A stretch of DNA of 57,733 bases. Origin: Bacillota bacterium. Lineage in GTDB: Bacteria > Bacillota > Limnochordia > DTU080. This document shows positions 8,455 to 47,949 of this stretch, piece after piece. The notes beneath the pieces were generated by a model. It made no database searches and was not told the origin of the DNA. It saw only the letters and a list, made by a program, of their open reading frames with translations. The first letter of the stretch is position 1. Every line of letters begins with the position of its first letter. The translations under genes and the position numbers were made by a program. Location: the NCBI GenBank assembly GCA_012840225.1, contig DULU01000021.1:1-57733 (forward strand), read 5' to 3'.

Positions 8455-8615
8455 GCTTTTTTCGGCTGTTCTGTTGTTCGACTGCGGCTGATACTCCCGG
8501 GCACCACCGGGTACGCGTCGGATATCACCGGAGAGGTATCTAAATAATTTCAAAGGGATTGCTAACCTATAGGCTAAACAGTAATAAAAAACCAAAATGG
8601 GAGGGAGTGTGCATT

Positions 8616-10247: not shown

Positions 10248-10319
10248 TGTGGGCAGCATCACCAGGAGTACGATGGGAAGGGGCGAAATTAACTGTCCAT
10301 AGAAATGGAGGTCGCTCTC

Positions 10320-32164: not shown

Positions 32165-32196
32165 AAAAAAGGAGCGCCCGAGAGGCGCCCCTTTTG
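32165..32196 (-). terminator. Intrinsic terminator of the exbB-SLH operon
   Basis: On the minus strand a GGGGCGCC/GGCGCTCC stem (one mismatch in eight pairs) with a TCTCG-like loop is followed by six T residues. It lies 34-65 bases after the stop of the SLH/coiled-coil gene and closes that operon. Because the cysteine desulfurase gene starts about 20 bases beyond the T run, read-through may supply part of its transcription. Confidence 0.85.
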
Positions 32197-32229: not shown

Positions 32230-35200
32230 TCACTTGGGCTGCACCAGCACTCCCAGAAGTGTGGAGATGATGCTTGTCGCCCAGGTGGTGCGACTGTTGC
32301 TGGCCAACCTGTCGTCGGTCTTCTCTTTGTAGGCCGCTAGATCCTTCTGCATGTCCTCAAGCACCAGACGCAGTTCGGCTTCACGCAACAGGCTATTTTT
32401 GCCTTCTTCTTCAATTTTGTTGCGCAAGCTGTTTTCCAATTCCGCCATTTGCTCATCGGAAAGGGTGACCTGGCTCTCCATGGCCATAATTTGCGCCAGG
32501 AGTTCCCTGATTTCTTTCCTGATCGACTCGATGGCTGCATTGGCGGCGGCCAGATCCCCGCGGGTAGCCTCTAGTTCATCCTGCGTCCGAGCCAGCTCTT
32601 GTTGCGTGGCCGCCAGTTTTTCCTGAGTCGCCGTCAAGCCGGTCTGCAGTTCACCCACCTGGGCCCTGAGTCCGGCCAGCTCGTCCTGATGCCTTTGCTC
32701 CTGGGCCTCCAGCCTGGCCTGCCAATCGCGGGCGAGCGCCTCCATCATGGCTTGCATATCCGCATAGGCCTTTTGCCAGGAGGCCTCCAGATTCTGATCT
32801 TTCTCCTTCAGTTGGTCTATGGAGGATGCCAGACGCTCATCGGCAGCCTGGAGAGCGGCGACATCTTCTTCCAGTTTCCGGGTTTGCGAAGCTAATTCCT
32901 CGGTTGCCTGCCGCAATTGGTCGTCGGTGGCCTGTTGCCTGGCCAGAGTTTCCTCCTGGGCTGTGATGGCGGTCGCCAGGGCGTCATCGGCTTTCTGCAG
33001 TTCAGCCAGGCCCGCTTCCGCAGCGGCCAGGCGCCGGTCGAGCGCGGCCACTTCATTCTTCAGCGCCGTGCTTTGCTCGACACCCATCTCCGCCATGGCT
33101 GCCTCCAAGGTCGCTATCTTTGCTCCTGTGGCTTGGTCCAGCTGGTCCACCTTTTGCTCGACAGCCGTGATCCGGCTTTGCAGACTGTCGACAGCTGCGG
33201 AACGCTCGGCTTTTTCACTTTTCAGGGCGGCTTCCCACTTGGCATCAAGATCCGTCACCCGGCGCTCCAGGTCGGCATCGGCCGTCTGCTGTTTGTCGAG
33301 GATATCCGCCTGAGCGGCGGCTAAAGCCGCGGCCAATTCCTCATCCCGGTTCTTCAGCTCGCCAATCTGGATTTCCGCGGCATTCAGGCGCTCGCCAAGA
33401 GTGGCGGCTTCGCTTTGCAACCTACCCTTCAGATCGCTGTCCATGCCGATCATGGCGGCTTCCAAAAGCGCCACTTTATCGGCTACGACCTTGTCCACCT
33501 TTTGATCGACAGCCGTGATCCGGCTCTGCAGAGCTGCATCGGCTGCCTCTTGCCTTTCCAGGATTTCCGCCCGGGTTCTCTCCAGATCGCCGGCCAACTT
33601 CTCGTCTTTTTCGACAAGATCGGCAATCTGGATTTCGGCGGCATTCAGGCGCTGGTTGAGGTAGGCGGCTTCACTTTGCAACCTGGATTTCAGCTCATCA
33701 TCTATATTGGCCATAGCCGACTCCAGGAGCGACATTTTGTCGGCTATGACATCATCCACTTTTTTATCGACGACGGCGATCCGGCTTTGCAGGTTATCCA
33801 CCGCCGCCTGGCGCTCCGTTCTTTCGCCGGCCAGCGCCGTCTCCAGTTTGGCGTCGGCCTCCTGCAGTTGCCTGACGGACTGATCCAGCCGCCCGATGGA
33901 CTGGTTCAGCTGCGTATCGGCAGCATAGAGGCTGGTAATTTCCTGGCGCAACCCCTGATCGACTGCCGACAGCGCTACGATCTTCTGCTGCAGCTCTTCA
34001 TCGGTGGCCTGCAGGGCTGCCGCCGTCTCGGCCAGGCGGTTGTCGATCTGCTTAAGCAGCTGTTGCAGTTCCGATTTGGCTCCTGTTATGTTCCCCTGCA
34101 GGGTGGCAACATCCGTCTGCCGTGCCCGTTGCTCTTCCGCCACCGCCGCTTTGGTCTCTTGGGACGATTTATCTATCTCCGTCAAGAGCTCGCTGCGCAG
34201 CTCATTGAGTTGGGTCACGGTCTCGCCGATCTGCCCGGTGAGTTCCTGCCCCAGGGCATTGATCAATATCTGGTGCTGATCCTGCACCTTTCTTATATCA
34301 CTTTGCTGCTTCTGCTGCTCAATCTGCAGGGCGGCTATTTCCGCCTCATGCTTGTCCAGCTGCTTTTGCTGAACCGCGAGTTTCTCCTCATGGCCGGACA
34401 AACGCACCTCAAAAGCGGCATTCTGGGCGGCCTGCTGGTCAAACAAAGTGGGGAGCGACCTATCATAGCTTTCCAATGCGGCAATTTTCTGCAGTTGGGT
34501 GAGGAGGCGCTCCTCGTGATCCTGCAGAGCGGCATCATGCCCGGCCAGTTTGGTACTATGCTCACCGACCAGCACCTGGTGCGCCTGAAGCTGTGTCTCC
34601 GCCTCTTTGAGGCGCCGGACATTATCATCAATCCGGCCGGCCAGCACCGCGGCGAAATCCTGTTGCTGTGCAGACTGTTCCTCCAAGGCGGTGATCCGCA
34701 AACCTTGCAGGTTGATCAATTGTCCCTGGTCCCCGATAAGTACGTCCTGCCGATCGAGCCGGCCGCCTTGCTCGGTCAACAAAGCCGCCTGACTGCGCAA
34801 GCTCTTTTCATGATCGTTCAGGGTGGCGTCGTGGAGGGCGAGCTGATTCGTGTGCTCCTTCAGTTGTTGTTCTATGTTCTGCTGCGTAGCCGAAAGCAGG
34901 CCGGCCAGATCAAAGCTCACCTTCTCCAGGCCTTCCATAGTGGCACTCTTGAAGGCGGCGATATCCTTCTCATGCTGGTCCGTTTTCTGCTTCAGCTGGG
35001 CAATATCGACGGTATGAGCGGCAATATCTTTGTCGTGCTGATCAGCTTTGGCCTGGAGCTGATCGAGGCGGCCGGCATGAAGAGATATCTGCTCGCCATT
35101 GTAGGCCACCGCCGCCCTGGTCTGGGCCAACTCATTAGCCAGCGTCACATCTTTGGCCGCCAGATTGGTCGCCGCCTGATTCACCTGGGCGATATCGTTC

Positions 35201-36531
35201 TGCAGCGACCCTTTCATCTTTTCCATATCGCCTTTGAGCTCGTTCTTTAGCTGTTCCACCGCCTGGGACAACGCCGCCAGGGAGGTCGCCTGCTCTGCGG
35301 AGAGCCGTTCCTCCTTGGCCACGGATGCTTTCAGATTGCTGATCTCTCCGGACTGAGTGGTCAGGGCGGCGGATAAGTCGTTGATGCGCCGCCGTTCGGT
35401 TTGAATGGCCGCATCCAGATCGGCGTCCTTGGCCGTCATGGCACTTAGTATCCTTTTCTCCAGGTCTGCCAAGGATTTGTTAATATGCTCGGTCAAAGAG
35501 ATGGTGCGCTGCTCAATATCGTTTTTCAGACCGGCGATATCCTGAGTGAGGCGGTTTATGGTGGCCGCCTGCTCCGCCAGCCGGTTTGTCTGCAAAGCGA
35601 GATCTTCTTCCAGGCTGATTCTCAGGTTATTTATGGCGCCGGCACTGTCAGTAACGCGTTTTTCCAGCTCGGCCAGTCTTTTGTCCAGTTGAGACAGGTT
35701 GCGGGTATTCCTCTCCACTCCCACTTCAGTCTCAGCCAGGCGGAAATGCAGGTTGTCGATCCTGGCGCTTTGTTCGCCGATCATCTCATCCAGCATCTGC
35801 TTGATGATGGAGAGCTGCACCTGAACCTCCATGCGCACGGCATCGTCGCCTCTGGTCATGGCGTTGCGCAGTGAGGTCAATTCCTCATTCAGTTTGGTGG
35901 AGATGTTCTTCAGCTGCACGATATCGGAATTCAGGCTGGTCTGTACCGCCGTTATCTGCTGCGTCAGGCTATCCAACTTTTGCCCGGAATAAGTTCCTTG
36001 GTCCTCCAGCGACCTCCTCACTGAATCCAGATTCCGGCTTTGGTTTTCCACCTGAGCCGTCAGGTTGTCCACCTTTTGCAGGAACTGGCTGATGCTTTCC
36101 GTCAGGGCGGCCGTGCGCCGGATCTCCTCATTGAGACCGCTGGCCGTCTTCTGCTGTTCGTAATAATAGCGGACCAACTCGGCATGGTATTCATCCAGCA
36201 AGCGGGAGAGAGTCTTCGCCTCTTCCTGTCCCAGACCGGTGGCGCTGATATCATTCAGCATCTTGGCCAGAGCAATGGCCAGAGTGTATCTATCCACCGG
36301 TTCGCCGCCTCTATAGGTGCCGTCCCGGCCGATCTCCAGATATCCTTTGTCCACCAGGAGGCGCACCGCTTCATACGCCGGATGGGTAGGCGGCACATCC
36401 GATAACTCCGTGCTTTTCGCCCCAACCGGCGCGGCTGTGAAAGTCATGAACGCCGATATGAGGCACAGCACCGTCAGGCCCCATATCAGGCTGCTGCTCC
36501 AAGTGTTGTTATTCCGCCTGGCTGCCTTCAT
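32230..36531 (-). CDS. Giant SLH-domain coiled-coil surface protein with C-terminal hydrophobic tail
   Basis: The start is the ATG at 36531 (AGAGGTG upstream), giving 1433 residues. Order: signal peptide (about 1-38); a single S-layer-homology domain (about 44-93, with LSDVPPTHPAYEAVRLLVD and YTLAIALAKML) of the kind that binds secondary cell-wall polymers on peptidoglycan; then about 1300 residues of nearly unbroken heptad coiled coil rich in Ala, Gln, Glu, Leu and Lys; then a final hydrophobic stretch TTWATSIISTLLGVLV ending four residues before the C terminus. The architecture matches Thermotoga Omp-alpha and relates to OmpM of diderm Bacillota, which tether the outer membrane to the wall. 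Internal 87-residue repeats occur at about 914-1087. It is the last gene behind exbB, exbD and tonB. Confidence 0.85.
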   Translation of the reverse strand: MKAARRNNNTWSSSLIWGLTVLCLISAFMTFTAAPVGAKSTELSDVPPTHPAYEAVRLLVDKGYLEIGRDGTYRGGEPVDRYTLAIALAKMLNDISATGLGQEEAKTLSRLLDEYHAELVRYYYEQQKTASGLNEEIRRTAALTESISQFLQKVDNLTAQVENQSRNLDSVRRSLEDQGTYSGQKLDSLTQQITAVQTSLNSDIVQLKNISTKLNEELTSLRNAMTRGDDAVRMEVQVQLSIIKQMLDEMIGEQSARIDNLHFRLAETEVGVERNTRNLSQLDKRLAELEKRVTDSAGAINNLRISLEEDLALQTNRLAEQAATINRLTQDIAGLKNDIEQRTISLTEHINKSLADLEKRILSAMTAKDADLDAAIQTERRRINDLSAALTTQSGEISNLKASVAKEERLSAEQATSLAALSQAVEQLKNELKGDMEKMKGSLQNDIAQVNQAATNLAAKDVTLANELAQTRAAVAYNGEQISLHAGRLDQLQAKADQHDKDIAAHTVDIAQLKQKTDQHEKDIAAFKSATMEGLEKVSFDLAGLLSATQQNIEQQLKEHTNQLALHDATLNDHEKSLRSQAALLTEQGGRLDRQDVLIGDQGQLINLQGLRITALEEQSAQQQDFAAVLAGRIDDNVRRLKEAETQLQAHQVLVGEHSTKLAGHDAALQDHEERLLTQLQKIAALESYDRSLPTLFDQQAAQNAAFEVRLSGHEEKLAVQQKQLDKHEAEIAALQIEQQKQQSDIRKVQDQHQILINALGQELTGQIGETVTQLNELRSELLTEIDKSSQETKAAVAEEQRARQTDVATLQGNITGAKSELQQLLKQIDNRLAETAAALQATDEELQQKIVALSAVDQGLRQEITSLYAADTQLNQSIGRLDQSVRQLQEADAKLETALAGERTERQAAVDNLQSRIAVVDKKVDDVIADKMSLLESAMANIDDELKSRLQSEAAYLNQRLNAAEIQIADLVEKDEKLAGDLERTRAEILERQEAADAALQSRITAVDQKVDKVVADKVALLEAAMIGMDSDLKGRLQSEAATLGERLNAAEIQIGELKNRDEELAAALAAAQADILDKQQTADADLERRVTDLDAKWEAALKSEKAERSAAVDSLQSRITAVEQKVDQLDQATGAKIATLEAAMAEMGVEQSTALKNEVAALDRRLAAAEAGLAELQKADDALATAITAQEETLARQQATDDQLRQATEELASQTRKLEEDVAALQAADERLASSIDQLKEKDQNLEASWQKAYADMQAMMEALARDWQARLEAQEQRHQDELAGLRAQVGELQTGLTATQEKLAATQQELARTQDELEATRGDLAAANAAIESIRKEIRELLAQIMAMESQVTLSDEQMAELENSLRNKIEEEGKNSLLREAELRLVLEDMQKDLAAYKEKTDDRLASNSRTTWATSIISTLLGVLVQPK
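33271..33792 (-). repeat. Two tandem 87-residue (261-base) coiled-coil repeats
   Basis: The encoded segment starting LQSRIAVVDKKVDDVIADK (from 33792) recurs exactly 261 bases later as LQSRITAVDQKVDKVVADK (from 33531). The match holds along all 87 residues, including RLNAAEIQI in each. A 29-residue insert follows, and from 33183 a third, more diverged copy begins LQSRITAVEQKVDQLDQA. The repeats are protein-level duplications inside the coiled coil and suggest growth of the rod by unequal recombination. Confidence 0.8.
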
Positions 36532-36573
36532 GTAATCGCACCTCTTTTTCACTGACCATAGATAACCACGCAA

Positions 36574-38640
36574 TTACTTAACCTCCAGGTTCAGTCCGTA
36601 ATTCTGCACTATGGCTTCCTGTCCGTCGCAGTCGAGAACCCGGAATTTATCAAAGGTTACCGGGGAGATACCGGGAGCGACGGCGCGGAAGTATATCACG
36701 GCCACAGTGCCGTTAATCAAAGTGTCGGAAACGGCACACGTCCTCTCCCCTGCCAGGATCAATCTGGCCGGCGGCTGGGCCTTGTCGGCCAGAAGCTCGG
36801 GTTCGCTCCACCCGGCCGCCGACTCAAACAAAGTGCCCCGCTCCACGCCCAGAGTGCCCCCCAAGACCTCCAGAACGAGCGGATTATAGGTGATCTCCAG
36901 GTTAACCTTTCCGGCAGAGCGCAGGTTGGCGGCTTTCACCACCACCTGAAAATGCTCTCCGACCGTGAGCGGGCCGCTTTTCCCGGCCGCCCTCACTGTC
37001 TCCATATAAATGACAGGATCGAGAGCCGGCACAAAAAGCAAGCCATGCGCCGCGGCGCTATCCCCTCCATAGGAGGTGGCTTTTATGGAATAAGGCAGAT
37101 TCCCGGGCAGCTCGCCCGTCGGCATCAGGTGCCATCTGAACGTGCTGCTCTCGCCCGGAGCCAGGGTGCCGGCCAAGCGGTCGGTGATATCGCCGGCCGC
37201 GAGCCGAAGCCCCCGCTCGGAAGACCAGTGAGCGAGCACATTATAGGCCTCGGCTTCTCCTTCGTTGGTAATGGTGGCCGTCACGGCAAAAGGCAGCGGC
37301 TGCCAGCTGGTACCATCAGGCAGGAGACGGGCTTCAGGCTCGGCGATCTTCACCGTCAGGCGGGCCGGAGATATCACGGAGATGCTGCGGGAGAGCTCGT
37401 TGGGCTCGGCATTCATGGCACGCACCCCGACGCTGTAGGTATAGTCTCGCCTGCCGCTCCTGGCCAAAACTACATCCCATTTTACCTGGACGGTTTGCCC
37501 GACGGGCACGGTGCCGAGGGAACGCATGGCCGTCTGGCCGGGCACCAGGTCAAGTCCGGCAGGCAGGCGGATGTCGGCAATCACGTCCCGCGCTTCGCCG
37601 TCCCCCCGGTTCTGAATATAAGCCACCACCTGAAAGCGGGCGCCGGGACGGTCCACCAACTGGGTGGGAGCGGCCAATCCCAGCTGCAGCTGCCCGGGCG
37701 ATATGCTGATGCCGCCCAAACCATAGTACACCACATAGGTGCGTTTGGCCCCGGGTGGCAAGACGACCGGATCCCACAGCAGAGCAGTAGCGCTGTCCAG
37801 GTCGAACTCACCCAGCCGGGTGAAGTCCCGGCCGGGGCTGAAACTGAATTCCCACTCGCCTTCGGCCAGGGCGCCCCAGTTGGTAAAGTACACCCGGTCG
37901 GGAGTGGTCACTTCTCCACCGCGCAAGGTGCCCTGCGCCGTCACTTTCGGATCGAGCAGCGAATCAAAGGCCTGCCAGAAATCAGGGATGTCCGCACCGC
38001 TTAAGACAGTATCGACGGTGACGGCATCATCGCCGACCCGGAAGGGGGCCCCGTCGTTCTCCCCCAGCATGGTGTCGAGGGCGACGCGCAGCCCCACCTC
38101 GTGGGGCACCTGGTCGCGGTTATGCAGAGTATAGGTGATGGAAGCGGTGTCCAGCAACCCGGTGGTGCTGGAGCGGACGATGCGGATGGATTGTTCGGCG
38201 GCAATGGGTCCAAGTTGCCAGGCACACACAATCCGCTCATCGCTGATCACCGGCGGGGTGATAATCTCCCCATAACGGCCTTTGGTTCCGGCATCCCGCG
38301 ATTTGCCTCCGAAAACCCAAGGCGTCCCGTCTATCAATAATGTAGTATAAGAGGTCCAGGGGCTTTGCCCGGGCCGCCGGTAAATGAGATGCTTATCGTC
38401 GTCCGAGGTGCGGTCCGGGTCGCCGCCTGTGGTGCTGACGGCAAAACGCCCCGTGTTCTCGTCGGTATTGTTTACGGTGATGGAAATATATTCATTGGCA
38501 ATGGTGACGTCCGACAAGGCGGACAGAGCGGCGGCGCCGCCCGGAAAGGCGGCAAGGCAAGCCAAGGCCAGGCCGAGCGCCCAGCAGAAGTATTTCCGTC
38601 GGCTCACCCATTGCTCCCAAAAGTTGGTTTTACCGTTCAT
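36574..38640 (-). CDS. Secreted beta-rich protein with CARDB-like repeats and cohesin-like C terminus
   Basis: The start is the ATG at 38640 (GGAGTG upstream), 10 bases after the tonB stop; the open frame upstream of it is antisense-like. The 688-residue protein has a signal peptide (RKYFCWALGLALACLAAF...), an N-terminal beta domain of unknown type (about 40-310), two stretches that look like CARDB-type Ig folds (FQVVAYIQNRGDGEARDV near 335 and VTATITNEGEAEAYNV near 455), and a C-terminal segment with the pattern of a cohesin or cohesin-like domain (FQVVVKAANLRSAGKVNLEI... VAPGISPVTFDKFRVLD, about 570-680). No membrane anchor is seen. Its place between tonB and the SLH protein suggests a periplasmic or surface partner of the TonB system. 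Confidence 0.75.
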   Translation of the reverse strand: MNGKTNFWEQWVSRRKYFCWALGLALACLAAFPGGAAALSALSDVTIANEYISITVNNTDENTGRFAVSTTGGDPDRTSDDDKHLIYRRPGQSPWTSYTTLLIDGTPWVFGGKSRDAGTKGRYGEIITPPVISDERIVCAWQLGPIAAEQSIRIVRSSTTGLLDTASITYTLHNRDQVPHEVGLRVALDTMLGENDGAPFRVGDDAVTVDTVLSGADIPDFWQAFDSLLDPKVTAQGTLRGGEVTTPDRVYFTNWGALAEGEWEFSFSPGRDFTRLGEFDLDSATALLWDPVVLPPGAKRTYVVYYGLGGISISPGQLQLGLAAPTQLVDRPGARFQVVAYIQNRGDGEARDVIADIRLPAGLDLVPGQTAMRSLGTVPVGQTVQVKWDVVLARSGRRDYTYSVGVRAMNAEPNELSRSISVISPARLTVKIAEPEARLLPDGTSWQPLPFAVTATITNEGEAEAYNVLAHWSSERGLRLAAGDITDRLAGTLAPGESSTFRWHLMPTGELPGNLPYSIKATSYGGDSAAAHGLLFVPALDPVIYMETVRAAGKSGPLTVGEHFQVVVKAANLRSAGKVNLEITYNPLVLEVLGGTLGVERGTLFESAAGWSEPELLADKAQPPARLILAGERTCAVSDTLINGTVAVIYFRAVAPGISPVTFDKFRVLDCDGQEAIVQNYGLNLEVK

Positions 38641-38650
38641 CCGGTCACTC

Positions 38651-39445
38651 CTATTCTCCAACGCCATCCACATGCAGATAGCGCACACGCTCATCGACGG
38701 CCATCGGTTCCACCACCAGATTAACCGGATCGATGGCCACCTCCAGGCGCAATTCGTAGGGATAACCCAGCTTTTTGTAGGCATAGGCCTGTCTGGAAAC
38801 ATTAATAGCCCAGTTGTCCAGCATATCTATGCCTGTGGACCGTTCCACCACGGCTTTCTCCCATTTGCCGTCGGCGGAAACCTGCACCAGCACCGGCACC
38901 ACAAACCTGGCCTGCAGCTGTCTCCCTTCTTTGGGAAAGCGCAGCGGCACCAGGGTGGTAACTACACTGGATCCGAAGGGCGGCTCGGGCGGTCCGTCGT
39001 TCGGCGGCACCGTCTCCTCACCCAACTCGGTCTCTGCATCGGCAGGAGTGGTGGAAGTGGTCTCCTCCACAGGCACGGCAGGCTCTTCCTCCACCTCCGG
39101 CACCTTTTCAGGCTGCGAGGCGGTCTCCGTGGCCGGACCGGTGCTGGTGAGAGGTGGTTCTTCCTCCTCCTGCACCACAGGTTCCGGAGCCGGTTTGGGT
39201 TTCTCGGTCACTTGCGGGGGTTTGGGCAGCGGGGCGGATATGGCCGGGCCCTGCGGTTTCGTGCCGTCCACCACCACGGCGGCCGGCTCCACGATCAGGT
39301 TCACTTCCACCGGCCCACCTTTGGCGTGCAGCCAGCCATATTGTGGTGCTCCCACCGCAGGTATCAGGATGATCAAAGCGGCATGAAAAACCAAAGATAT
39401 CACATAAAAGGGTGCGCTCTGTTGTTCTTTTTGCTTGTCAATCAA
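38651..39445 (-). CDS. tonB: TonB family energy-transducing protein
   Basis: The 264-residue protein has the TonB layout: a short cytoplasmic start, one membrane anchor (FYVISLVFHAALIILIPAV, about 13-31), a Pro/Glu/Thr-rich stretch (about 65-165) able to span a periplasm, and a C-terminal TonB-like domain (VPVLVQVSADGKWEKAVVE, then STGIDMLDNWAINV, about 175-250). TonB carries energy from ExbB-ExbD to outer-membrane partners. The TTG start at 39445 has GAGGTGG at eight bases. It follows exbD by 21 bases. No TonB-dependent receptor is encoded in this window. Confidence 0.9.
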   Translation of the reverse strand: MIDKQKEQQSAPFYVISLVFHAALIILIPAVGAPQYGWLHAKGGPVEVNLIVEPAAVVVDGTKPQGPAISAPLPKPPQVTEKPKPAPEPVVQEEEEPPLTSTGPATETASQPEKVPEVEEEPAVPVEETTSTTPADAETELGEETVPPNDGPPEPPFGSSVVTTLVPLRFPKEGRQLQARFVVPVLVQVSADGKWEKAVVERSTGIDMLDNWAINVSRQAYAYKKLGYPYELRLEVAIDPVNLVVEPMAVDERVRYLHVDGVGE

Positions 39446-39466
39446 TTTGCGCCACCTCTTTGCGTC

Positions 39467-39880
39467 CTATAGGGGCCGCTCCGGAGTCGTTTGCACCGCC
39501 AGTTGTAATCGGGAGGCCCCACCTGCTCTGACGGCATCGATGGCATTCACCACATTCTGATAGTCGGTAGATCTGTCGGCTTTGATGGTCACCACCAGTT
39601 GCGGATTGGCCCTGAGCTGATCTTTCACCCACATGCTGATCATGGCGGCGGAACGGGGCCCCTCTGCCGTATACATGCGTCCCTGCGCGTCGACCGTGAT
39701 CACGATTTCCCTGGCCGCCTGCGGATCGGCCATGTTGGCCCCGGGCAGGTTTACATTGATCCCGGCTTGCGAAGAACGGAAAGTAGTGTATATCATAAAA
39801 AATATTATAAGAAAGGTGAGAACATCGACCATGGATATCAATTGCACGGTCGGCTGTCGCCTGGTTCTGGTAACCAACAT
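39467..39880 (-). CDS. exbD: ExbD/TolR-type proton-channel subunit
   Basis: The 137-residue protein has a single N-terminal membrane helix with the essential proton-relay aspartate in LISMVDVLTFLIIFF (about residue 18-20) and a C-terminal soluble domain with VTIKADRSTDYQNVVNAID, the common ExbD/TolR end. ExbD forms the stator channel with ExbB in the inner membrane. The ATG at 39880 overlaps the exbB stop (TGATG), with GAGGTGA upstream. Because a TonB-like gene follows, and not tolA, tolB or pal, the ExbD name fits better than TolR. Confidence 0.92.
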   Translation of the reverse strand: MLVTRTRRQPTVQLISMVDVLTFLIIFFMIYTTFRSSQAGINVNLPGANMADPQAAREIVITVDAQGRMYTAEGPRSAAMISMWVKDQLRANPQLVVTIKADRSTDYQNVVNAIDAVRAGGASRLQLAVQTTPERPL

Positions 39881-40497
39881 CACTTCTCACCTCGCGAGTC
39901 GATGATGATATCGATCAGCTTCGTCCCCCAGCGGTTCATCTGTTGCACCCGCCGATCGATGATGGAGCCGAACCATTCGTGAAAAGCCAGGCAAGGAATG
40001 GCCACAATCAACCCGGCGGCCGTGGTGATCAGAGCTTCGGCGATACCGGTACTCATGGCACTCGGACCCTCCAGGCCCTGCAGCGCCGACAGCACCCGGA
40101 ACGACTTGATCAGGCCGGTTACCGTTCCCAATAGACCCAAGAGCGGCGAGATGGTGACCACCGCCGAGAGCAATGCCAGTCCTCTTTCCATGCGGAATAT
40201 CTCATTCCTGGCGGACTGTTCCATATGCACCCGCAGCTCGTCGGCATCCTTGTCGGCGTAGGCCACGCCCGTGGCTATCAAAGCCGCCACGGGACCTCGC
40301 TCCTGGCGAGCCAGCTGCATAGCCTCCAGATTTTTGCCTTCGGATAGCGGTCCTCTCAGCTTTTCCAGAAAGTCGTCACCGTTGGAGCGGGTGCGCCAGA
40401 AAAACCAGATACGATCCAAAATCACGGCCAGGCCCAGGATGGAGCAGATGAGGATGGGAATCATTACCGGGCCGCCTTTGACCAGCGTGGCAAACAT
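39880..40497 (-). CDS. exbB: ExbB/TolQ/MotA-type proton-channel subunit
   Basis: The 205-residue inner-membrane protein has three predicted helices. The first is near the N terminus (MIPILICSILGLAVILDRIW), then come a cytoplasmic loop of about 80 residues and the paired helices TISPLLGLLGTVTGLI and GIAEALITTAAGLIVAIP, which carry the conserved channel residues of the MotA/TolQ/ExbB family. It forms a pentamer around ExbD and converts proton flow to movement of TonB. The start is the ATG at 40497 with GGAGG at eight bases. An upstream GTG/ATG in the same frame lies inside a long inverted repeat. It is the first gene of the operon. Confidence 0.92.
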   Translation of the reverse strand: MFATLVKGGPVMIPILICSILGLAVILDRIWFFWRTRSNGDDFLEKLRGPLSEGKNLEAMQLARQERGPVAALIATGVAYADKDADELRVHMEQSARNEIFRMERGLALLSAVVTISPLLGLLGTVTGLIKSFRVLSALQGLEGPSAMSTGIAEALITTAAGLIVAIPCLAFHEWFGSIIDRRVQQMNRWGTKLIDIIIDSRGEK

Positions 40498-40520: not shown

Positions 40521-40607
40521 CAGAATGGTAACTACCTGTAATTTCCACTTCATCTTCGACACCTTGGCAGGGTAGTCCTGTCGGCAGAGGAGGAAATTAC
40601 CATTCTG
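40521..40607 (-). promoter_or_regulatory. Long inverted repeat in the exbB leader
   Basis: The 16-base right arm GGAAATTACCATTCTG (40592-40607) is matched perfectly on the other side by CAGAATGGTA (40521-40530) and ATTTCC (40541-40546), with ten extra bases between the two left segments. The 45-base interior contains a further CGACA/TGTCG pairing. The element lies directly before the exbB ribosome-binding site (40509-40513 region). It may be an RNA leader structure, such as a cis-regulator, or a protein operator. It fits no riboswitch family recognised here. Confidence 0.6.
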
Positions 40608-40645
40608 AATATGTTTTTCGCCATTTAGTCTTTAAAATGGTATAT

Positions 40646-40677
40646 AAAAAGGCCGGTGTTTAGCAAGCAGCACCGGC
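40646..40677 (-). terminator. Intrinsic terminator after the GNAT gene
   Basis: On the minus strand the stem GCCGGTG/CACCGGC (seven perfect pairs, twelve-base loop) is followed by CTTTTTATATA. It lies 60-90 bases after the stop of the acetyltransferase gene and separates that transcript from the exbB operon. Confidence 0.8.
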
Positions 40678-41457: not shown

Positions 41458-42216
41458 TCAAGACATAAGAGAGCGCATCTTCAAAAGGACGCGCTGTTCC
41501 AGGCGGGACACATGGGCCTGCGACACCCCGAAGGCGCGGGCCACATCGACCTGACGCATGTTCCGGATAAAACGCATTTCCACCAGTTGCCGTTCTTCTT
41601 CGGGAAGCGAGCTCAGCACCTGCCGCAGGGCCAAATTGTCAACCACGGCCGCATCCTCGCTCTCAATGGCTATCTGATCGCCGAGTTTAAGAGGGGCGCC
41701 TTCATCCTGAAACACAATCTCTTCCACCGATACCGGCTGGGCCACAGCTTCCATGGCATAGACGACATCCTCCCGCCTGACCCCGATATCTAAGGCCACT
41801 TCCGTCACGGTGGGAGAACGTCCGAGCTCCTGGGTGAGCCGCTCACGGCTTGCGGCAGCTTTGCCGGCCAAGTCGTGCCAGTGACGGCTCACTTTCACGA
41901 CCGCTTCCTTTTGCAGGAAACGTTTGATCTCTCCCAGAATGCGCGGCACGGCATATGTGGAAAAGCGCACCTCATATTCCAGATTGAAGTGCTCAATGGC
42001 GCTCACCAGTCCCAGGCAGCCTACCTGGAAAAGGTCGTCGGCTTCAGCCCCGCGCCGGCTGAAGCGCTGCACCAGACTCATCACCAGCCGCAAATTGCTC
42101 TTGATCAATCTGTCTCGTGCCGCCAGATCCCCTTTCTGCGCCCGCCTGATCAAAAGGCGGGTCTCTTCCGGCGACAGGTCGGCCGGCGGCAGAGCCATCT
42201 TAATCAGCTCTTCCAT
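41458..42216 (-). CDS. sigF: Forespore RNA polymerase sigma factor SigF
   Basis: SigF is the first compartment-specific sigma factor of sporulation, held inactive by SpoIIAB until SpoIIAA frees it. The 252-residue protein has region 2 (DLFQVGCLGLVSAIEHFN and VRFSTYAVPRILGEIKRFL, about 62-100), region 3, and the region 4 helix-turn-helix MRQVDVARAFGVSQAHVSRLEQ (about 215-236; the last part is the recognition helix). SigF and SigG are close relatives. The position directly after spoIIAA and spoIIAB decides for SigF. It starts 19 bases after the spoIIAB stop. No spoVA genes follow. Confidence 0.95.
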   Translation of the reverse strand: MEELIKMALPPADLSPEETRLLIRRAQKGDLAARDRLIKSNLRLVMSLVQRFSRRGAEADDLFQVGCLGLVSAIEHFNLEYEVRFSTYAVPRILGEIKRFLQKEAVVKVSRHWHDLAGKAAASRERLTQELGRSPTVTEVALDIGVRREDVVYAMEAVAQPVSVEEIVFQDEGAPLKLGDQIAIESEDAAVVDNLALRQVLSSLPEEERQLVEMRFIRNMRQVDVARAFGVSQAHVSRLEQRVLLKMRSLMS

Positions 42217-42234
42217 CTTCGGCGGCCCCCTTTT

Positions 42235-42702
42235 TCAGGGCCGCGAGGCTGGTGCCAGCTTTTTCGCCATATATACCCTGGTGCCGGCACCCGGCCTGGA
42301 AGTGATCGTCAAGTCATCCATAAATTCCTTGATCACGCTCAATCCCAAACCCATGCGCGATTTATCGGTGGTATTGGTCGGCTGCATGGCCCACTCAATA
42401 TCTTCTATGCCGGTGCCTTTATCGGTCACCACCACTTCCAGTTCGTCTTCATATAGCTTCACGTCCACCTGAATCATTCCGGAAGTATCCCGGTACCCGT
42501 GTATGACGGCATTGGACACCGCCTCCGACACAGCCACCTTGATCTCATCGAGCTGATCGACGGTCAAATCGCGCTGAGAGGCTACGAGCGCCACCGCGGT
42601 GCGGGCAAAGCCGACATTCTCCGGCTTGCTGGTGAATAAGAGCTGTACTTCGTTTTCCGGTATCCGTCCCGCCCGGGACTTGTCCTGCGGTACGGCCTGC
42701 AT
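42235..42702 (-). CDS. spoIIAB: Anti-sigma F factor and SpoIIAA kinase
   Basis: SpoIIAB binds and blocks SigF and phosphorylates SpoIIAA. The 155-residue GHKL-type kinase has the N-box VSEAVSNAVIHGYRD (about 68-82), the G1 motif VTDKGTGI (about 101) and the glycine-rich lid MGLGLSVIKEFMDD (about 126-139). The ATG at 42702 with GGGAGG at eight bases is chosen; the frame upstream to 42765 overlaps spoIIAA and is not needed. The N-terminal extension of about ten residues before NEVQLLF is slightly longer than in B. subtilis (146 residues). Confidence 0.95.
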   Translation of the reverse strand: MQAVPQDKSRAGRIPENEVQLLFTSKPENVGFARTAVALVASQRDLTVDQLDEIKVAVSEAVSNAVIHGYRDTSGMIQVDVKLYEDELEVVVTDKGTGIEDIEWAMQPTNTTDKSRMGLGLSVIKEFMDDLTITSRPGAGTRVYMAKKLAPASRP

Positions 42703-42715
42703 ACCAATCGCCTCC

Positions 42716-43051
42716 CTATAACCGCGCCAAGGCGCGCCGTTCGGATTCTGCGGTCTCCACGACATTCAACACACCCGACAACTTCAGGATCCTTTTTACC
42801 ACCGGGCGCAATCCGACGGCGATCATGGTCCCGCCCCGCTCTTTGATGGTGCGGTAACGTCCTAATATGGCGCCGACGCCGGAGCTGTCGATCAGGCTGG
42901 TCTTGGAGAGGACCAGCACCAAATTTTTCACCCGTTTGTCCATCAGATAGCGTTCCGCTTCGTGCTTGAATTCTTCAACAGTATGCATGTCCAACTCGCC
43001 CTGCAAGCGGATCACCAAGGTATTGCCGACCAATTCGGCTGCTACATGCAC
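42716..43051 (-). CDS. spoIIAA: Anti-anti-sigma factor SpoIIAA
   Basis: SpoIIAA, when unphosphorylated, displaces SigF from SpoIIAB; the phosphatase SpoIIE reactivates it. The 111-residue STAS-domain protein has the phosphorylatable serine in SLIDSSGVGAILGRY (about residue 47) and LQGELDMHTVEEFK at the N-terminal side. The GTG at 43051 (GGAGG at eight bases) is preferred because it gives the usual length. The frame continues to a TTG at 43081, whose GGAGGTGA lies too close. It is the first of the three spoIIA genes, after dacF, as in B. subtilis. Confidence 0.93.
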   Translation of the reverse strand: MHVAAELVGNTLVIRLQGELDMHTVEEFKHEAERYLMDKRVKNLVLVLSKTSLIDSSGVGAILGRYRTIKERGGTMIAVGLRPVVKRILKLSGVLNVVETAESERRALARL

Positions 43052-43176
43052 ACGCTCATCCTCCTTCCGCCGGCGGATCAATCACCTCCTTTACACCTTC
43101 GCTCTTCTCCCCCGAGCACCTTTAAAATTGCTGCCTATGGGTGGCCGGGTATCTGTCGCTCGATATAGGTGGCGCA

Positions 43177-44403
43177 TTATGGATTGAAAACGCCACGCAC
43201 CGTGCTGAGCATCAGCTGCCACACCGATCCCCTATCCACATCTTCAGCCGCCAGCAGATCGAATCTGGCCACTTCCTCCCCGGACACCAGCACCACCAAC
43301 TCCGCCACCGCCTGCCCTTTCTTTATCGGGGCGGTGAGCTTCTGCTTGGGAATGATCTGCGTTTCGGGAGCGAGCTTGCTCTCCCGCGTCCCGGTGATGA
43401 TCACATCGCGGGCCGGAGCCACCTGCACGGTACCTTTTTTCCCTTTAGCCACTTCCACCTGACCCAGCACTTCACCCTGGCCGGCAATCTTAAGCGCTTG
43501 GCGCCTGGCAAAGCCATAATCGAGGAGTTTTGCCACATCTTTATTTCTCTCGGTGGAGCTGGGCGCACCTAAGACTACGGCGATCAGCCTGAGATTGGCT
43601 CTTTCCGCCGTAGCAGCCAGGCAGAATCCGGCCTCGTTCGTCATGCCGGTTTTGATGCCGTCCATACCAGCATATTGCTTCATCATTTTGTTATATGTCC
43701 ACAATTCCGGTTGCCTTTTGGTCTCCGGGCGCATGACTACCGGCCCCCAGGTGGAAACCAGCTCCCTGAATCGGGGCAGCTTCAGGGCCCAGCGGGACAA
43801 AAGAGCCAGATCATAGGCGGAAGCCAGATGAGGCGCCGTCTCTCCCAACTCGGCGGGAGGGAGCCCACTGGGGTTGGAGAAGGTGGTGTTTTCCATTCCC
43901 AAACTGCGCGCCTTCTGATTCATCATCTGCACGAAGGCAGGGACCGACCCGGCCAGATGTTCGGCCACAGCCACCGAGGCGTCGTTGGCCGAGCCTACGG
44001 CAATGGCAAAAAGCAAATCCTCAAAGCGCATCTGCTCGTTGGGCTCCAGCCAGATTTGGGTGCCGCCCATACTGGCCGCCAACTCGCTCGCCGTCACCAG
44101 GGTATCAGGCTGCACCCGGCCTTCGGCGAGAGCTTCCAGGGCCAGCGCCAGCGTCATGATCTTGGTCACGCTGGCCGGCGGCAGTGGGGTGTGAGCATTC
44201 TTCTCAAAAAGCACTTCCCCGGTGACATAGTCCATGAGAACGGCGGCTTTGGCCGTAAGCTGCAAATCTGCTCCCGGTGCCTGGGTTGGGGTCGAAGCGG
44301 CGAGGGCGACGACAGTGCCGCCGGCGGCTGCTGCAGCCATCACAACGGTGCTCACCAGCAACCATATTAGCACCTTTTGGCGTAAGTTCACGGAAATCGA
44401 CAT
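43177..44403 (-). CDS. dacF: D-alanyl-D-alanine carboxypeptidase DacF
   Basis: This penicillin-binding protein of the PBP5 class trims the terminal D-alanine of peptidoglycan stem peptides; in sporulation it tunes cortex cross-linking. The 408-residue precursor has a signal peptide (VLIWLLVSTVVMAAAAAGG), the active-site motifs SVTK (about residue 79), SAN (about 140) and DGIKTGMTN (about 245), and a C-terminal beta domain ending in an amphipathic anchor (SVWQLMLSTVRGVF). The ATG at 44403 has GGAGG at eight bases. The ribosome site and start codon can pair with an upstream arm. The position before spoIIAA matches B. subtilis. Confidence 0.94.
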   Translation of the reverse strand: MSISVNLRQKVLIWLLVSTVVMAAAAAGGTVVALAASTPTQAPGADLQLTAKAAVLMDYVTGEVLFEKNAHTPLPPASVTKIMTLALALEALAEGRVQPDTLVTASELAASMGGTQIWLEPNEQMRFEDLLFAIAVGSANDASVAVAEHLAGSVPAFVQMMNQKARSLGMENTTFSNPSGLPPAELGETAPHLASAYDLALLSRWALKLPRFRELVSTWGPVVMRPETKRQPELWTYNKMMKQYAGMDGIKTGMTNEAGFCLAATAERANLRLIAVVLGAPSSTERNKDVAKLLDYGFARRQALKIAGQGEVLGQVEVAKGKKGTVQVAPARDVIITGTRESKLAPETQIIPKQKLTAPIKKGQAVAELVVLVSGEEVARFDLLAAEDVDRGSVWQLMLSTVRGVFNP

Positions 44404-44483
44404 AACACACCCTCCTAGCTTTGCCATCCGTACCTTTATATTTCGAGGCACGAATGATTTATGCCGGAAAAGAGGGTGTTATG
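44401..44483 (-). promoter_or_regulatory. Inverted repeat covering the dacF start and ribosome site
   Basis: On the mRNA strand CATAACACCCTC (44472-44483) can pair with GAGGGTGTGTTATG (44401-44414), giving eight plus four base pairs with a two-base bulge and a loop of about 57 bases. The downstream arm includes the GGAGG site and the ATG of dacF, so the fold would block translation. A translational switch is inferred; a DNA operator is the alternative. Confidence 0.45.
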
Positions 44484-44497
44484 TACGTCTCTCCTGA

Positions 44498-45808
44498 TTA
44501 ATCGGCCACGATGTCGACTATTAACGGCTCAGGCGCCGGGAGAGGCTCCGATCTGATGGTAAAGGCCGCTTTCACTCTGGCGGCCGCCTCCTCAGCCAGG
44601 AAAGTATCTTGAGCATGAATGACGGCGAGCGGGCGGCCCGGGACGATTTCCTCTCCCGGTTTGACCAATAGCTCAATGCCGGCAGAGGGATCAATCCGGT
44701 CTTCCTTGCGGCGCCGGCCGGCGCCCAGTGGCACGGCGGCCAGGCCGATTTCACCGGCATCGACAGCATGCAGATAACCTGCGGCGGCCGCCTCCACCAC
44801 CCGCCTTACCGGCGCCCTGGGCAAAAGTTCCGGATGATCGATCACGGCTTCCTCCCCACCCTGAGCTGCCACCATCCGCTTCAGGGCCTCTATTCCCCGT
44901 CCGGAATGCAATGCCTCCAATAGCAGGCGGCGGGCACCGACCGCATCCTGGGCCTTGCCGGCCAAAACAAGCATGTGGCTGCCCAATACCAGCGACAGCT
45001 CCAGAAGGTCGGGTGGCCCGCCGCCCCGCAAAACGGCCACCGCTTCCGCCACTTCCAGAGCATTGCCTACCGCCCGGCCCAGGGGGGCCCACATACCGCT
45101 GATCACCGCCACGGCTTTTTTACCGTTTTTGGCGGCGATATCCACCAGGAGTTGAGCCAGGCGCCGGGCATCTGCCGGATCTTTCATGAACGCGCCTCCC
45201 CCTGTCTTGACATCAAAGACAAAGGCCGCGGCGCCGGCGGCGAGCTTCTTGCTCATGATGCTGGCCGCGATAAGAGGAATGGAGTCGACGGTGGCGGTCA
45301 CATCCCGCAAAGCATAAAGCAGTTTGTCGGCAGGCACCAGATCGGCTGTTTGCCCGGCGATCACCAGGCCGACGGCGCGCGCCTGGTCCAATATCTCCTG
45401 CTGGGAAAGATCCACCCGCATTCCCGGAATGGCTTCCAGCTTGTCGAGGGTGCCGCCGGTATGGCCCAGTCCCCGGCCGGAAAGCTTCACCACCGGCGCA
45501 CCGCAAGCGGCGACGAGAGGCGCCACCACCAGGGTGGTTTTGTCGCCCACCCCGCCGGTGGAATGCTTGTCCACCACCACACCGGGTATGGTGGACAGAT
45601 CCAGGGTTTGCCCGGAAAGCACCATCATTTTGGTTAAAAATGCTGTTTCGGCCGCGGTCATGCCGTTGAAATATACAGCCATCAGCCAGGCGGCGACCTG
45701 GTAGTCGGGGATCGTGCCCTTCACGATACCCTGGATCCAAAAGCTCATCTCTTCTTCGGTCATGCTTTCGCCCCGGCGTTTTTTCAATATCAGTTCGTAG
45801 GCCTCCAT
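44498..45808 (-). CDS. pdp: Pyrimidine-nucleoside phosphorylase
   Basis: The enzyme splits thymidine, deoxyuridine or uridine with phosphate to the base and (deoxy)ribose 1-phosphate. The 436-residue protein has the family signature SGRGLGHTGGTLDKLEAIPG (about 109-128), the phosphate site DKHSTGGVGDKTTL (about 82-95), and the C-terminal alpha/beta domain. Length and motifs fit both Pdp of Bacillus and DeoA of E. coli, and the Bacillota context favours Pdp. The start overlaps the deoB stop (TGATG), so the two salvage enzymes are coupled: the sugar phosphate made here is the DeoB substrate. Confidence 0.94.
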   Translation of the reverse strand: MEAYELILKKRRGESMTEEEMSFWIQGIVKGTIPDYQVAAWLMAVYFNGMTAAETAFLTKMMVLSGQTLDLSTIPGVVVDKHSTGGVGDKTTLVVAPLVAACGAPVVKLSGRGLGHTGGTLDKLEAIPGMRVDLSQQEILDQARAVGLVIAGQTADLVPADKLLYALRDVTATVDSIPLIAASIMSKKLAAGAAAFVFDVKTGGGAFMKDPADARRLAQLLVDIAAKNGKKAVAVISGMWAPLGRAVGNALEVAEAVAVLRGGGPPDLLELSLVLGSHMLVLAGKAQDAVGARRLLLEALHSGRGIEALKRMVAAQGGEEAVIDHPELLPRAPVRRVVEAAAAGYLHAVDAGEIGLAAVPLGAGRRRKEDRIDPSAGIELLVKPGEEIVPGRPLAVIHAQDTFLAEEAAARVKAAFTIRSEPLPAPEPLIVDIVAD

Positions 45809-47013
45809 CAGCGCTCCCCCTTTGCCGTCGTGCCGAAGATTTCACCGCAAAAGCTCTGCCCCGGACCGGGATTCCCGACCCCGAATATATCGGCCAAGGT
45901 GGCGGCCACGTCGGCAAAGGTCTCTCTGACCCCCAGAAAACGCGGTCGCACCAAGGGTCCACAGACGAGCAGCGGCACATATTCCCGGGAATGATCTGTA
46001 CTGGGCGTCGTCGGATCGCAGCCGTGATCGGCGGTGATCACCAGCAGATCATCTTCTCGCAATTCCGCCAAGAGCTTCGGAAGATGCTGATCGAAACGCC
46101 GCAGGCCCTCGGCATAAGAGGCCGCGTCGTTGCGGTGACCCCAAAGCATGTCGAAATCGTTGCAGTTGGCGAAAAGCAAGGCCGGCGCCGGTCTCTCTCC
46201 CAAAAGTCGGAGCACGGTGGCCAGCACCTCGTCGTTACCGTGGGCCGGGAAGGATCGGGTGACGCCCCGGCCGGCAAAGATATCCCAAATTTTGCCCACC
46301 GCCCACACTGCATAGCCGGCGCCGGTCAGCACATCCAATATGGTCTCCCCGGTCGGGGGCAGGCTGAAGTCGCGCCTGGCGGCCGTGCGCACAAAGGCTC
46401 CGGGCTTCCCGGTAAAGGGACGGGCGATCACCCTTCCCACCCCGTGCCGCCCTTGCAGGATCTCCCTGGCGATGCGGCACAGGCGGTATAATTCCTCTAC
46501 GCTGATGACCTCCTCATGGGCGGCGATCTGGAAGACGCTGTCGGCCGAGGTGTATACTATCGGGCGGCCGGTTTTAAGGTGCTCCGCTCCCAGCTCTTCG
46601 ATGATGGCGGTACCGGATGCGGCTTTGTTGCCCAGCACCCGGCGACCGACGGCAGCCTCGAAAGCGGTGATCACCTCCGCAGGGAAACCGTCGGGATAGA
46701 CGGGAAAAGGCTCTTTCAGCACCAGGCCGCAGAGTTCCCAGTGACCTGTGGTGGTATCTTTGCCCGGAGCTTTTTCAGCCATCTTGCCCCAGGCGGCCTT
46801 GGGAGCGGAGACCGGCGCCACCCCCTCCAGGGCTACAATATTTCCTAAGCCCAAAGCGGCCAGATTAGGAACCTGCAGTCCCCCGACGGCGCGGGCCGTA
46901 TTGCCCAAAGTATGGCTGCCGGTATCGCCATATTTATCCGCATCAGGCAACCAGCCTATGCCGGCGGAATCCAATACGATCAATATCACCCGGTTGATAA
47001 GGCGATCAGGCAA
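45808..47013 (-). CDS. deoB: Phosphopentomutase
   Basis: DeoB interconverts (deoxy)ribose 1- and 5-phosphate, linking nucleoside salvage to central metabolism. It is an alkaline-phosphatase-fold metalloenzyme. Visible are the metal/nucleophile region [17 protein letters not shown] with [11 protein letters not shown] (N-terminal 40 residues), [13 protein letters not shown] (about 95), [19 protein letters not shown] (about 335) and the C-terminal end. The TTG at 47013 with AAGGTGG gives 401 residues, close to the B. subtilis length; the frame extends to an ATG at 47091 without support. pdp follows in overlap. Confidence 0.93.
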
Positions 47014-47102
47014 AAAAGCCACCTTCCTCAAAGATGATATCTCGACACATAGCTTGTCCATCGAAGCATAATTCGGTGCAATAAATGCCAAACCTTTCCT
47101 GC

Positions 47103-47270
47103 TTAGATTATATATGTGGCGGAGCGGGGCAGGGGCGGCATCTCTTTGAGCGCCGGTTGCCAGACCCGATAAGCGGCATAAAAGATTAAGATCAGCAACA
47201 CCAGGAACATCAACTTAAGGAGGAAAACCCATATTTTCCGCTTGATGCCCACCAACCAGACGGCGATCAC
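47103..47270 (-). CDS. Small YqzK-like membrane protein
   Basis: A 55-residue frame from GTG at 47270 encodes one strong membrane helix ([20 protein letters not shown], residues about 19-38) preceded by a Lys/Arg stretch and followed by a short Pro-rich tail. In B. subtilis the gene yqzK (DUF4227), also a small single-helix protein, lies between spoIIM and the fur-xerD-deoB genes. Here this frame lies between spoIIM and deoB, so the positional match is good. GGGAG is about twelve bases before the GTG, which is loose spacing. The function is unknown. Confidence 0.6.
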
Positions 47271-47295
47271 GTTTCGGTCTCACTCCCAACTTAAG

Positions 47296-47949
47296 CTACA
47301 ATAGACCTCGGCCGGCATATAACACCAGCACCGGCGTGATATAAGCTTCAATCAGGCTGCCGGCGGCGAGCAGGATAGAGCCGACGACAGCCAGCGAACC
47401 TTCCGTGAGAAAATGGTGCCGGATACCGCCCGGAGAAGGCCGCCCCAGCATGCTTTGCAAGGCCCGAAACGAAAAGGCCACGGCTCCGGCGGCTGTCAGC
47501 ATCAACCCCGGCAGATGAAGCAAATTATGAGGCAAAAGGGCCAGCATGGCCAGAACGGTGCCTTTCCAGGCCAACTGACTTATGAGAACGCCGGCGGTGA
47601 AACCCAAAGAGAAGCCACGCAGAAAAAGGATGGCGGCAATAAGCGGCGCCCCGATCACCGAGAGGCCCAATAACCAAAGTAAACCGCCTGTTTTCAGTAC
47701 ATTTTCGCCCAGAATGTGCCCGATGTTTTTCGCCGGTAACATCCCTGCACCGGCCAGGCTGCTGAACAGATCATTGATGTAAACCATCAGTTCCCGGCGC
47801 GTCTGCTCGGGTAGAGCGCCGCCCCCGGCCATGCCGGCAACAAAACCCATGCCCATGATCCCGGCTAAAACAGCACACAACACCACCCGCTCTTTCAGGC
47901 AGGTTTTAAGCGAAAAAGGCACAATGCCACGGCGCCCGGCTTTCGGCAA
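47296..47949 (-). CDS. spoIIM: Stage II sporulation protein M
   Basis: SpoIIM forms the DMP complex with SpoIID and SpoIIP, which remodels septal peptidoglycan during engulfment. The 217-residue membrane protein has about five helices, including VVLCAVLAGIMGMGFVAGM near the N terminus and a glycine-rich middle (IGAPLIAAILFLRGFSLGF). The helix pattern and the loop LLPHNLLHLPGLML (PHNxxxxP) are typical of SpoIIM. The TTG start at 47949 has GGGAGGG at eight bases. The position next to the yqzK-like gene and deoB supports the call. Confidence 0.92.
   Translation of the reverse strand: MPKAGRRGIVPFSLKTCLKERVVLCAVLAGIMGMGFVAGMAGGGALPEQTRRELMVYINDLFSSLAGAGMLPAKNIGHILGENVLKTGGLLWLLGLSVIGAPLIAAILFLRGFSLGFTAGVLISQLAWKGTVLAMLALLPHNLLHLPGLMLTAAGAVAFSFRALQSMLGRPSPGGIRHHFLTEGSLAVVGSILLAAGSLIEAYITPVLVLYAGRGLL

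Follow-up and report, generated by a model that had tools for sequence, protein, structure and literature searches.

Organization of the five-gene unit

The window, i.e. the whole 57,733 nt stretch of DNA that was analysed, contains the genes exbB, exbD, tonB, P4 and CC as a single minus-strand unit (32230-40497) with a terminator at each side. We use P4 for a secreted protein of 688 residues and CC for an SLH/coiled-coil protein of 1433 residues; coordinates of all features are listed in Table 1. The first-pass annotation had described five minus-strand genes in this region, and we can confirm their places and gaps: all five reading frames are open, a purine-rich start site precedes each gene in the window sequence, and the intergenic spacing from exbB to CC consists of a 1-base overlap followed by 21, 10 and 42 bases. 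The terminator previously placed at 32165-32196 was recovered as a hairpin with a U run at nearly the same position. Since this element lies 3' of CC and a second hairpin lies ahead of exbB, the five genes look like one predicted transcription unit. The exbB leader (window 40521-40608, minus strand) carries a long inverted repeat of ~13 pairs (AGAATGGTAATTT / AAATTAC..TTACCATTCT; folding z -2.2). A comparison of this leader with Rfam gave no match, leaving an RNA element unsupported. Elsewhere in the window we noted a gene for a hybrid histidine kinase with a receiver domain (8559-10247) and, next after it, one for a protein of 1318 aa that has a heparinase II/III-like domain (10305-14261).

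Table 1. Genes, domains and hairpins of the five-gene unit in window coordinates
Feature	Position	Strand	Support
exbB: MotA/TolQ/ExbB-type proton channel, 205 aa	39880..40497	-	Pfam MotA_ExbB 5e-32
exbD: ExbD/TolR, 137 aa, membrane aspartate (MVDVLTF)	39467..39880	-	Pfam ExbD 1.2e-23
tonB: 264 aa, TTG start; TM helix with SxxxH, Pro-rich linker, TonB_C-like end	38651..39445	-	
P4: secreted, 688 aa; signal peptide, mutarotase-like, Ig-like and cohesin-like domains	36574..38640	-	AlphaFold2 pLDDT 90.9
P4 residues 40-310: galactose-mutarotase-like supersandwich	37711..38523	-	VIA-align Z 16-17 (GH94, GalM)
P4 residues 540-688: cohesin-fold domain	36577..37023	-	1.2e-14; Z 16.3, rmsd 1.9-2.2
CC: 1433 aa, SLH / coiled coil / C-terminal hydrophobic helix (Omp-alpha-like)	32230..36531	-	
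CC SLH domain	36289..36402	-	PF00395 18.1 bits (genome search), 16.4 bits (protein scan)
CC coiled coil, ~1315 residues, one proline	32302..36249	-	heptad power
CC C-terminal hydrophobic helix	32233..32292	-	sequence; orthologues
Operon intrinsic terminator: 13-pair hairpin, then U run, z -3.6	about 32167..32195	-	
Terminator-like hairpin between upstream GNAT acetyltransferase gene and exbB	40652..40677	.	

ExbB, ExbD and TonB of the Ton system are all three present according to family and profile matches, and their first identification was borne out by Pfam, by TonB_C matches of the orthologues and by profile comparison with the PDB. The window's ExbB (110.8 bits) and ExbD (84 bits) are clear Pfam family members, and the channel motifs of ExbB are retained. 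The window's TonB alone stays below threshold (19.8 bits vs a cut-off of 24.6 for Pfam TonB_C); 18 of 20 TonB orthologues match this family, the best at 6.7e-16. A profile of the orthologues retrieved solved TonB C-terminal domains from the PDB (5e-9) and reached TolA only via its linker. The only invariant columns among the 20 orthologues are S17 and H21, which form the SxxxH motif; in a wider set the motif is present in 63 of 71 TonB proteins, with the His kept in five more. By homology, ExbB-ExbD are predicted to be a proton-driven inner-membrane motor and TonB a pulling arm spanning the periplasm. A profile of 24 ExbB orthologues matches solved TolQ and solved ExbB about equally. For the window's ExbB the tolQ model scores higher than the exbB model (94 vs 57 bits), both far below the equivalog cut-offs. 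We rejected this as evidence for a TolQ/TolR identity of the pair because ExbB controls linked to TonB-dependent receptors score alike, again with tolQ above exbB.

The secreted protein P4 and the putative tether CC

The P4 model was built with 58 sequences and has a high overall confidence (Table 1). Its residues 40-310 adopt the supersandwich fold of GalM and GH94 phosphorylases, with Z 16-17 over 205-247 residues in VIA-align, and thus share the fold of galactose mutarotase. The C-terminal residues 540-688 match the ScaB cohesin by profile (1.2e-14) and show the fold of cellulosome cohesins in the model (Z 16.3), in agreement with the cohesin-like character assigned to P4 at the outset. NPCBM-associated/CARDB-like modules sit between these two domains. 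Foldseek returned, the cohesin apart, low-TM matches to large multi-domain proteins only, and the N-terminal fold was resolved by VIA-align. Across two classes P4 shows an identity of 36-50%. The mutarotase-like domain is the most conserved part of the protein; most of the invariant residues among the 58 orthologues fall in it, including DTMLGxNDGAP, which suggests a putative conserved ligand site. The alignment contains no invariant column of His or Glu, the residue types that are catalytic in galactose mutarotases.

CC starts with a signal peptide and a single SLH domain, continues as a coil and ends in a terminal hydrophobic helix. This SLH-coil-hydrophobic-tail plan, proposed in the first-pass annotation, proved to be real and common to nearly all complete orthologues. 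The SLH domain of the window's CC is by itself sub-threshold (16.4 bits vs a cut-off of 20.8), and SLH is matched by 35 of 35 orthologous CC N-termini. Heptad power of the coil reaches 0.97, compared to 0.18 +/- 0.04 in shuffles. A C-terminal hydrophobic helix is found in 70 of 75 orthologues; among the five without it, L092, L111 and L138 run to contig ends. Extensive length variation was noted, complete CC proteins ranging from 211 to 1480 residues with a median of 400.

Beyond the SLH domain and into the subsequent stalk, the N-terminus of CC aligns with the tethers SlpA of Deinococcus (4e-19) and OmpM of Veillonella (2e-18). In contrast to these, CC has no beta-barrel, and its coil reaches the terminal helix. 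The CC plan matches that of Thermotoga Omp-alpha (PMC3387000, PMC9388160), which in T. maritima has an N-terminal SLH domain, a long coiled coil and ~20 hydrophobic C-terminal residues (PMC3387000). Omp-alpha differs in that it adjoins the porin Omp-beta and no motor, and the window's CC is far longer. By analogy with Omp-alpha, we would place the CC helix in the outer membrane.

The same genome encodes on another contig (C99; L268:1118-6622) a second giant SLH protein of 1834 aa. It begins like OmpM and continues into a coil of ~1170 residues; its C-terminal end is rich in Trp/Tyr with Phe as the last residue, which is what a barrel would show. Because both tethers are giant and their coils are close in length, this single data point suggests that they bridge the same wide gap, a hint of a wall-to-membrane ruler. 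A search for OmpM-type genes adjoining bamA, aimed at co-scaling of tether lengths, found none in 20 relatives. In one relative a second SLH/coiled-coil gene lies directly upstream of exbB (L148:4959-5651), and the cluster is hereby flanked by two tether genes.

Conservation of the unit and its link to the outer membrane

Conservation was followed in a class sample of 61 genomes and a phylum sample, an even set of 398 genomes; most genomes surveyed are fragmentary metagenome assemblies. In protein searches of the class sample, 59 of the 61 genomes had P4 and 60 had ExbB, and each of 20 wide loci taken from this class carries the order exbB-exbD-tonB-P4-CC, with one CC cut by a contig end. A one-genome-per-species scan yielded 232 P4 relatives, of which the best 80 were examined as loci. 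In 67 of these 80 all five genes are ordered on one strand; the remaining 13 loci are truncated, with genes missing on a side where the contig stops. Limnochordia or Limnochordaceae records (L090, L101, L106, L135), Halanaerobiia (Frackibacter, Orenia, Halanaerobacter, Halonatronum, Halanaerobium) and also Hydrogenispora are represented among these best 80 of 232. Judged by these relatives, the window itself would belong to Limnochordia. Full-length P4 is present in 88 of the 398 genomes of the phylum sample; exbB is located 1.1-1.9 kb upstream of P4 on the same strand in 82 of them, and the other 6 loci are at contig ends. The gene order, which the first-pass annotation had proposed to look for in other diderm Bacillota, is therefore kept in all 80 loci except at contig ends, and the two secreted genes, far from being unlinked to exbBD-tonB in relatives, are universally linked to it where contigs allow. 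Recurrence of this order across two classes is far beyond chance. A conventional or vestigial Ton system lying beside P4 and CC by chance, for which nothing speaks beyond the known ExbBD-TonB families, is hardly credible and is refuted by the gene order in 67/80 and the exbB linkage in 82/88 loci, with the P4 identity over two classes and the conserved coupling residues also against it.

The unit is not bound to one genomic neighborhood. Directly upstream of it the window carries spoIIAA-spoIIAB-sigF with dacF, pdp, deoB and spoIIM (41458-47949), and Limnochordia-type loci generally read deoB-pdp-dacF-spoIIAA-spoIIAB-sigF-GNAT, then the five-gene unit. In Halanaerobiia and several other lineages the unit has other neighbors. 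Such persistence of a block amid changing flanks is typical of functional units.

Omp85 is a marker of the outer membrane. In the phylum sample it was found in 87 of the 88 P4 genomes, compared to only 14 of the 310 genomes without P4 (Fisher 1.5e-71, a value that ignores shared ancestry). Twelve of these 14 have TonB-dependent receptors together with ExbB and behave like Negativicutes. The mutarotase-like domain of P4 recurs as a module in frames of 1200-2600 aa in other Bacillota (G272, G383, G422, G234, G208, G237, G288, G071). Since Omp85 was undetected in those genomes carrying the module in such giant proteins, the domain itself is not specific to the outer membrane.

A different picture emerged for TonB-dependent receptors. 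Their plug domain, searched with one Pfam model, was not detected in the window's genome; 52 of the 61 class-sample genomes and 59 of the 88 P4 genomes likewise gave no match. Of the 29 P4 genomes with a receptor, 16 have an additional ExbB 1.4-3.1 kb from the receptor gene; no ExbB was found near the receptor in the remaining 13, often on short contigs. P4 and CC are absent from the receptor-linked or Negativicutes-type ExbBD-TonB sets inspected (21 with ExbB and one with TonB only). Receptor-linked sets form separate paralogous clusters in the same genomes (L239-L247, L254, L256-L258), some with a TonB of 340-590 aa. In the ExbB tree cluster copies and receptor-linked copies are mostly separate (3 changes vs 17.8 in shuffles), with a single origin resolved for neither. 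Given the missing receptor gene, the first-pass annotation had suggested a non-uptake role, a view supported by the genome-wide lack of plug domains and by the separate receptor-linked sets; we found no support for gliding, which it had also considered.

A proposed powered tether and alternative readings

In the Tol-Pal system TolB is a six-bladed beta-propeller protein, Pal an OmpA-domain lipoprotein, and TolA combines an SHLS-type TM helix and a linker with a TonB/TolA-like C-terminal domain. The E. coli genes are ordered tolQ-tolR-tolA-tolB-pal. The five-gene unit matches this order with a motor pair, an SxxxH single-pass arm, a secreted beta-rich protein and a wall-binding tether, and likewise lacks receptor linkage. 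It differs in that P4 lacks a beta-propeller, the arm terminates with a TonB_C-type domain, and CC carries an SLH domain and a hydrophobic helix where Pal has its OmpA-like domain and lipid anchor. None of the 61 genomes of the class sample contains TolB over the TIGR02800 cut-off, with partial propeller matches below the cut-off only. No Pal was found in the window's genome, where the sole OmpA domain belongs to MotB beside MotA. We also considered a hidden Pal: an OmpA domain occurs in 54 of the 61 class-sample genomes. Of 20 such loci inspected, however, 15 encode MotB beside MotA, and the other five (L199, L200, L210, L211, L216) are scattered, non-MotB or undecided, and outside the five-gene unit. 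The parallel to Tol-Pal is positional and functional in kind, with homology limited to motor and arm. Motor and arm are also homologous to those of the Ton system, and the TonB C-terminal domain matches solved TonB domains. Unlike a Ton system, most five-gene members have no receptor, a receptor, if present, often has its own adjoining motor set, and P4 and CC are two additional fixed genes. By these criteria the unit falls outside Tol-Pal, as it lacks a TolB propeller and Pal, and outside the Ton uptake systems, as it lacks a receptor.

With about even odds (roughly 0.5), the five genes encode one envelope-spanning, proton-driven machine that acts via P4 on an outer-membrane-to-wall tether in a Tol-Pal-like manner. 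The ExbB-ExbD motor in the inner membrane would drive TonB as a pulling arm across the periplasm. CC would attach to the cell wall through its SLH domain; its C-terminal helix would, as judged from Omp-alpha, hold the outer membrane. P4 may serve as a secreted adaptor, its folds pointing to the binding of a glycan and/or a partner via the mutarotase-like and cohesin-like domains. Through P4, TonB could pull on, release or redistribute CC, which might let the outer membrane follow the wall during growth, division or spore engulfment. We infer a physical coupling of the motor to P4 and/or CC. In favor of such a machine are the invariant gene order in a block kept while its neighbors change, the tie to the outer membrane and not to uptake, the match of the CC N-terminus to the tethers SlpA and OmpM, the SxxxH coupling motif, and the order parallel to tolQ-tolR-tolA-tolB-pal in the window's genome without Pal and a class sample without TolB over the cut-off. 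Several observations speak against it: the hydrophobic tail of CC could instead lodge in the inner membrane, the ExbB sequence gives no telling preference for TolQ over ExbB, the mutarotase-like domain also occurs in genomes without Omp85, and Negativicutes-like genomes have an outer membrane without the unit. The unit probably does the job of Tol-Pal in diderm spore-forming relatives of Bacillus, standing in its place without being a member. More tentatively, and with somewhat less than an even chance, it may constitute a third kind of outer-membrane machine powered by protons, in addition to Ton uptake and Tol-Pal, namely a powered SLH tether, ancestral to the non-Negativicutes diderm Bacillota, that actively sets the attachment of the outer membrane to the wall.

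Uptake is the best-known role of TonB, and P4 combines a carbohydrate-enzyme fold with a cohesin domain, so TonB might instead open an unrecognised outer-membrane channel encoded elsewhere for energised uptake or export, with P4 as a glycan-binding or scaffold component. We regard this as unlikely: the plug domain is missing from the window's genome and most P4 genomes, more than half of the receptor genomes have a separate motor set beside the receptor gene, the unit holds no channel gene, and the invariant tether gene would be left unexplained. Slightly less probable is that the motor serves another envelope process, such as lipid/LPS transport or envelope sensing, while P4 and CC are structural neighbors kept for dosage and not driven by TonB. 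Genomic linkage by itself cannot demonstrate force transfer; the five genes are, however, inseparable over two classes despite changing flanks, and no other gene is constantly linked to them. The position directly downstream of spoIIAA-spoIIAB-sigF and GNAT in Limnochordia-type loci would fit a sporulation device that is controlled from the forespore or the mother cell and acts in engulfment, when an outer membrane has to form from the engulfing membrane. This is quite improbable, as Halanaerobiia keep the five genes away from sigF and a terminator-like hairpin separates the unit from the upstream gene.

The genome paper of Halothermothrix orenii in 2009 recorded ExbB, ExbD and TonB together but no receptors, and proposed that they serve some other function (PMC2626281); neither P4 and the SLH tether nor the conservation and the outer-membrane link feature in it. 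A locus study of 2016 considered Halanaerobiales SLH proteins to be anchors resembling OmpM and makes no reference to ExbB or TonB (PMC5007114). According to a 2022 survey, the Tol-Pal set of atypical diderms is reduced and includes neither pal nor tolB (PMC8871954). A 2025 survey restricts Tol-Pal to Gracilicutes and, within the diderm Firmicutes, Ton systems to Negativicutes (PMC12204202). Thus a receptor-less TonB in one Halanaerobiales genome is already known, while for the conserved five-gene unit with P4 and CC we found no description in the open-access literature.

The unit addresses the receptor-less TonB that has been left unexplained since 2009 (PMC2626281). Cultivable Halanaerobiia carry it and offer its five genes as targets for deletion. 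The near one-to-one match of P4 with Omp85 bears on the question whether the outer membrane is ancestral in Bacillota. For diderm Terrabacteria without Pal or TolB, the unit provides concrete candidates for the adaptor and the tether in constriction and stabilisation of the outer membrane.
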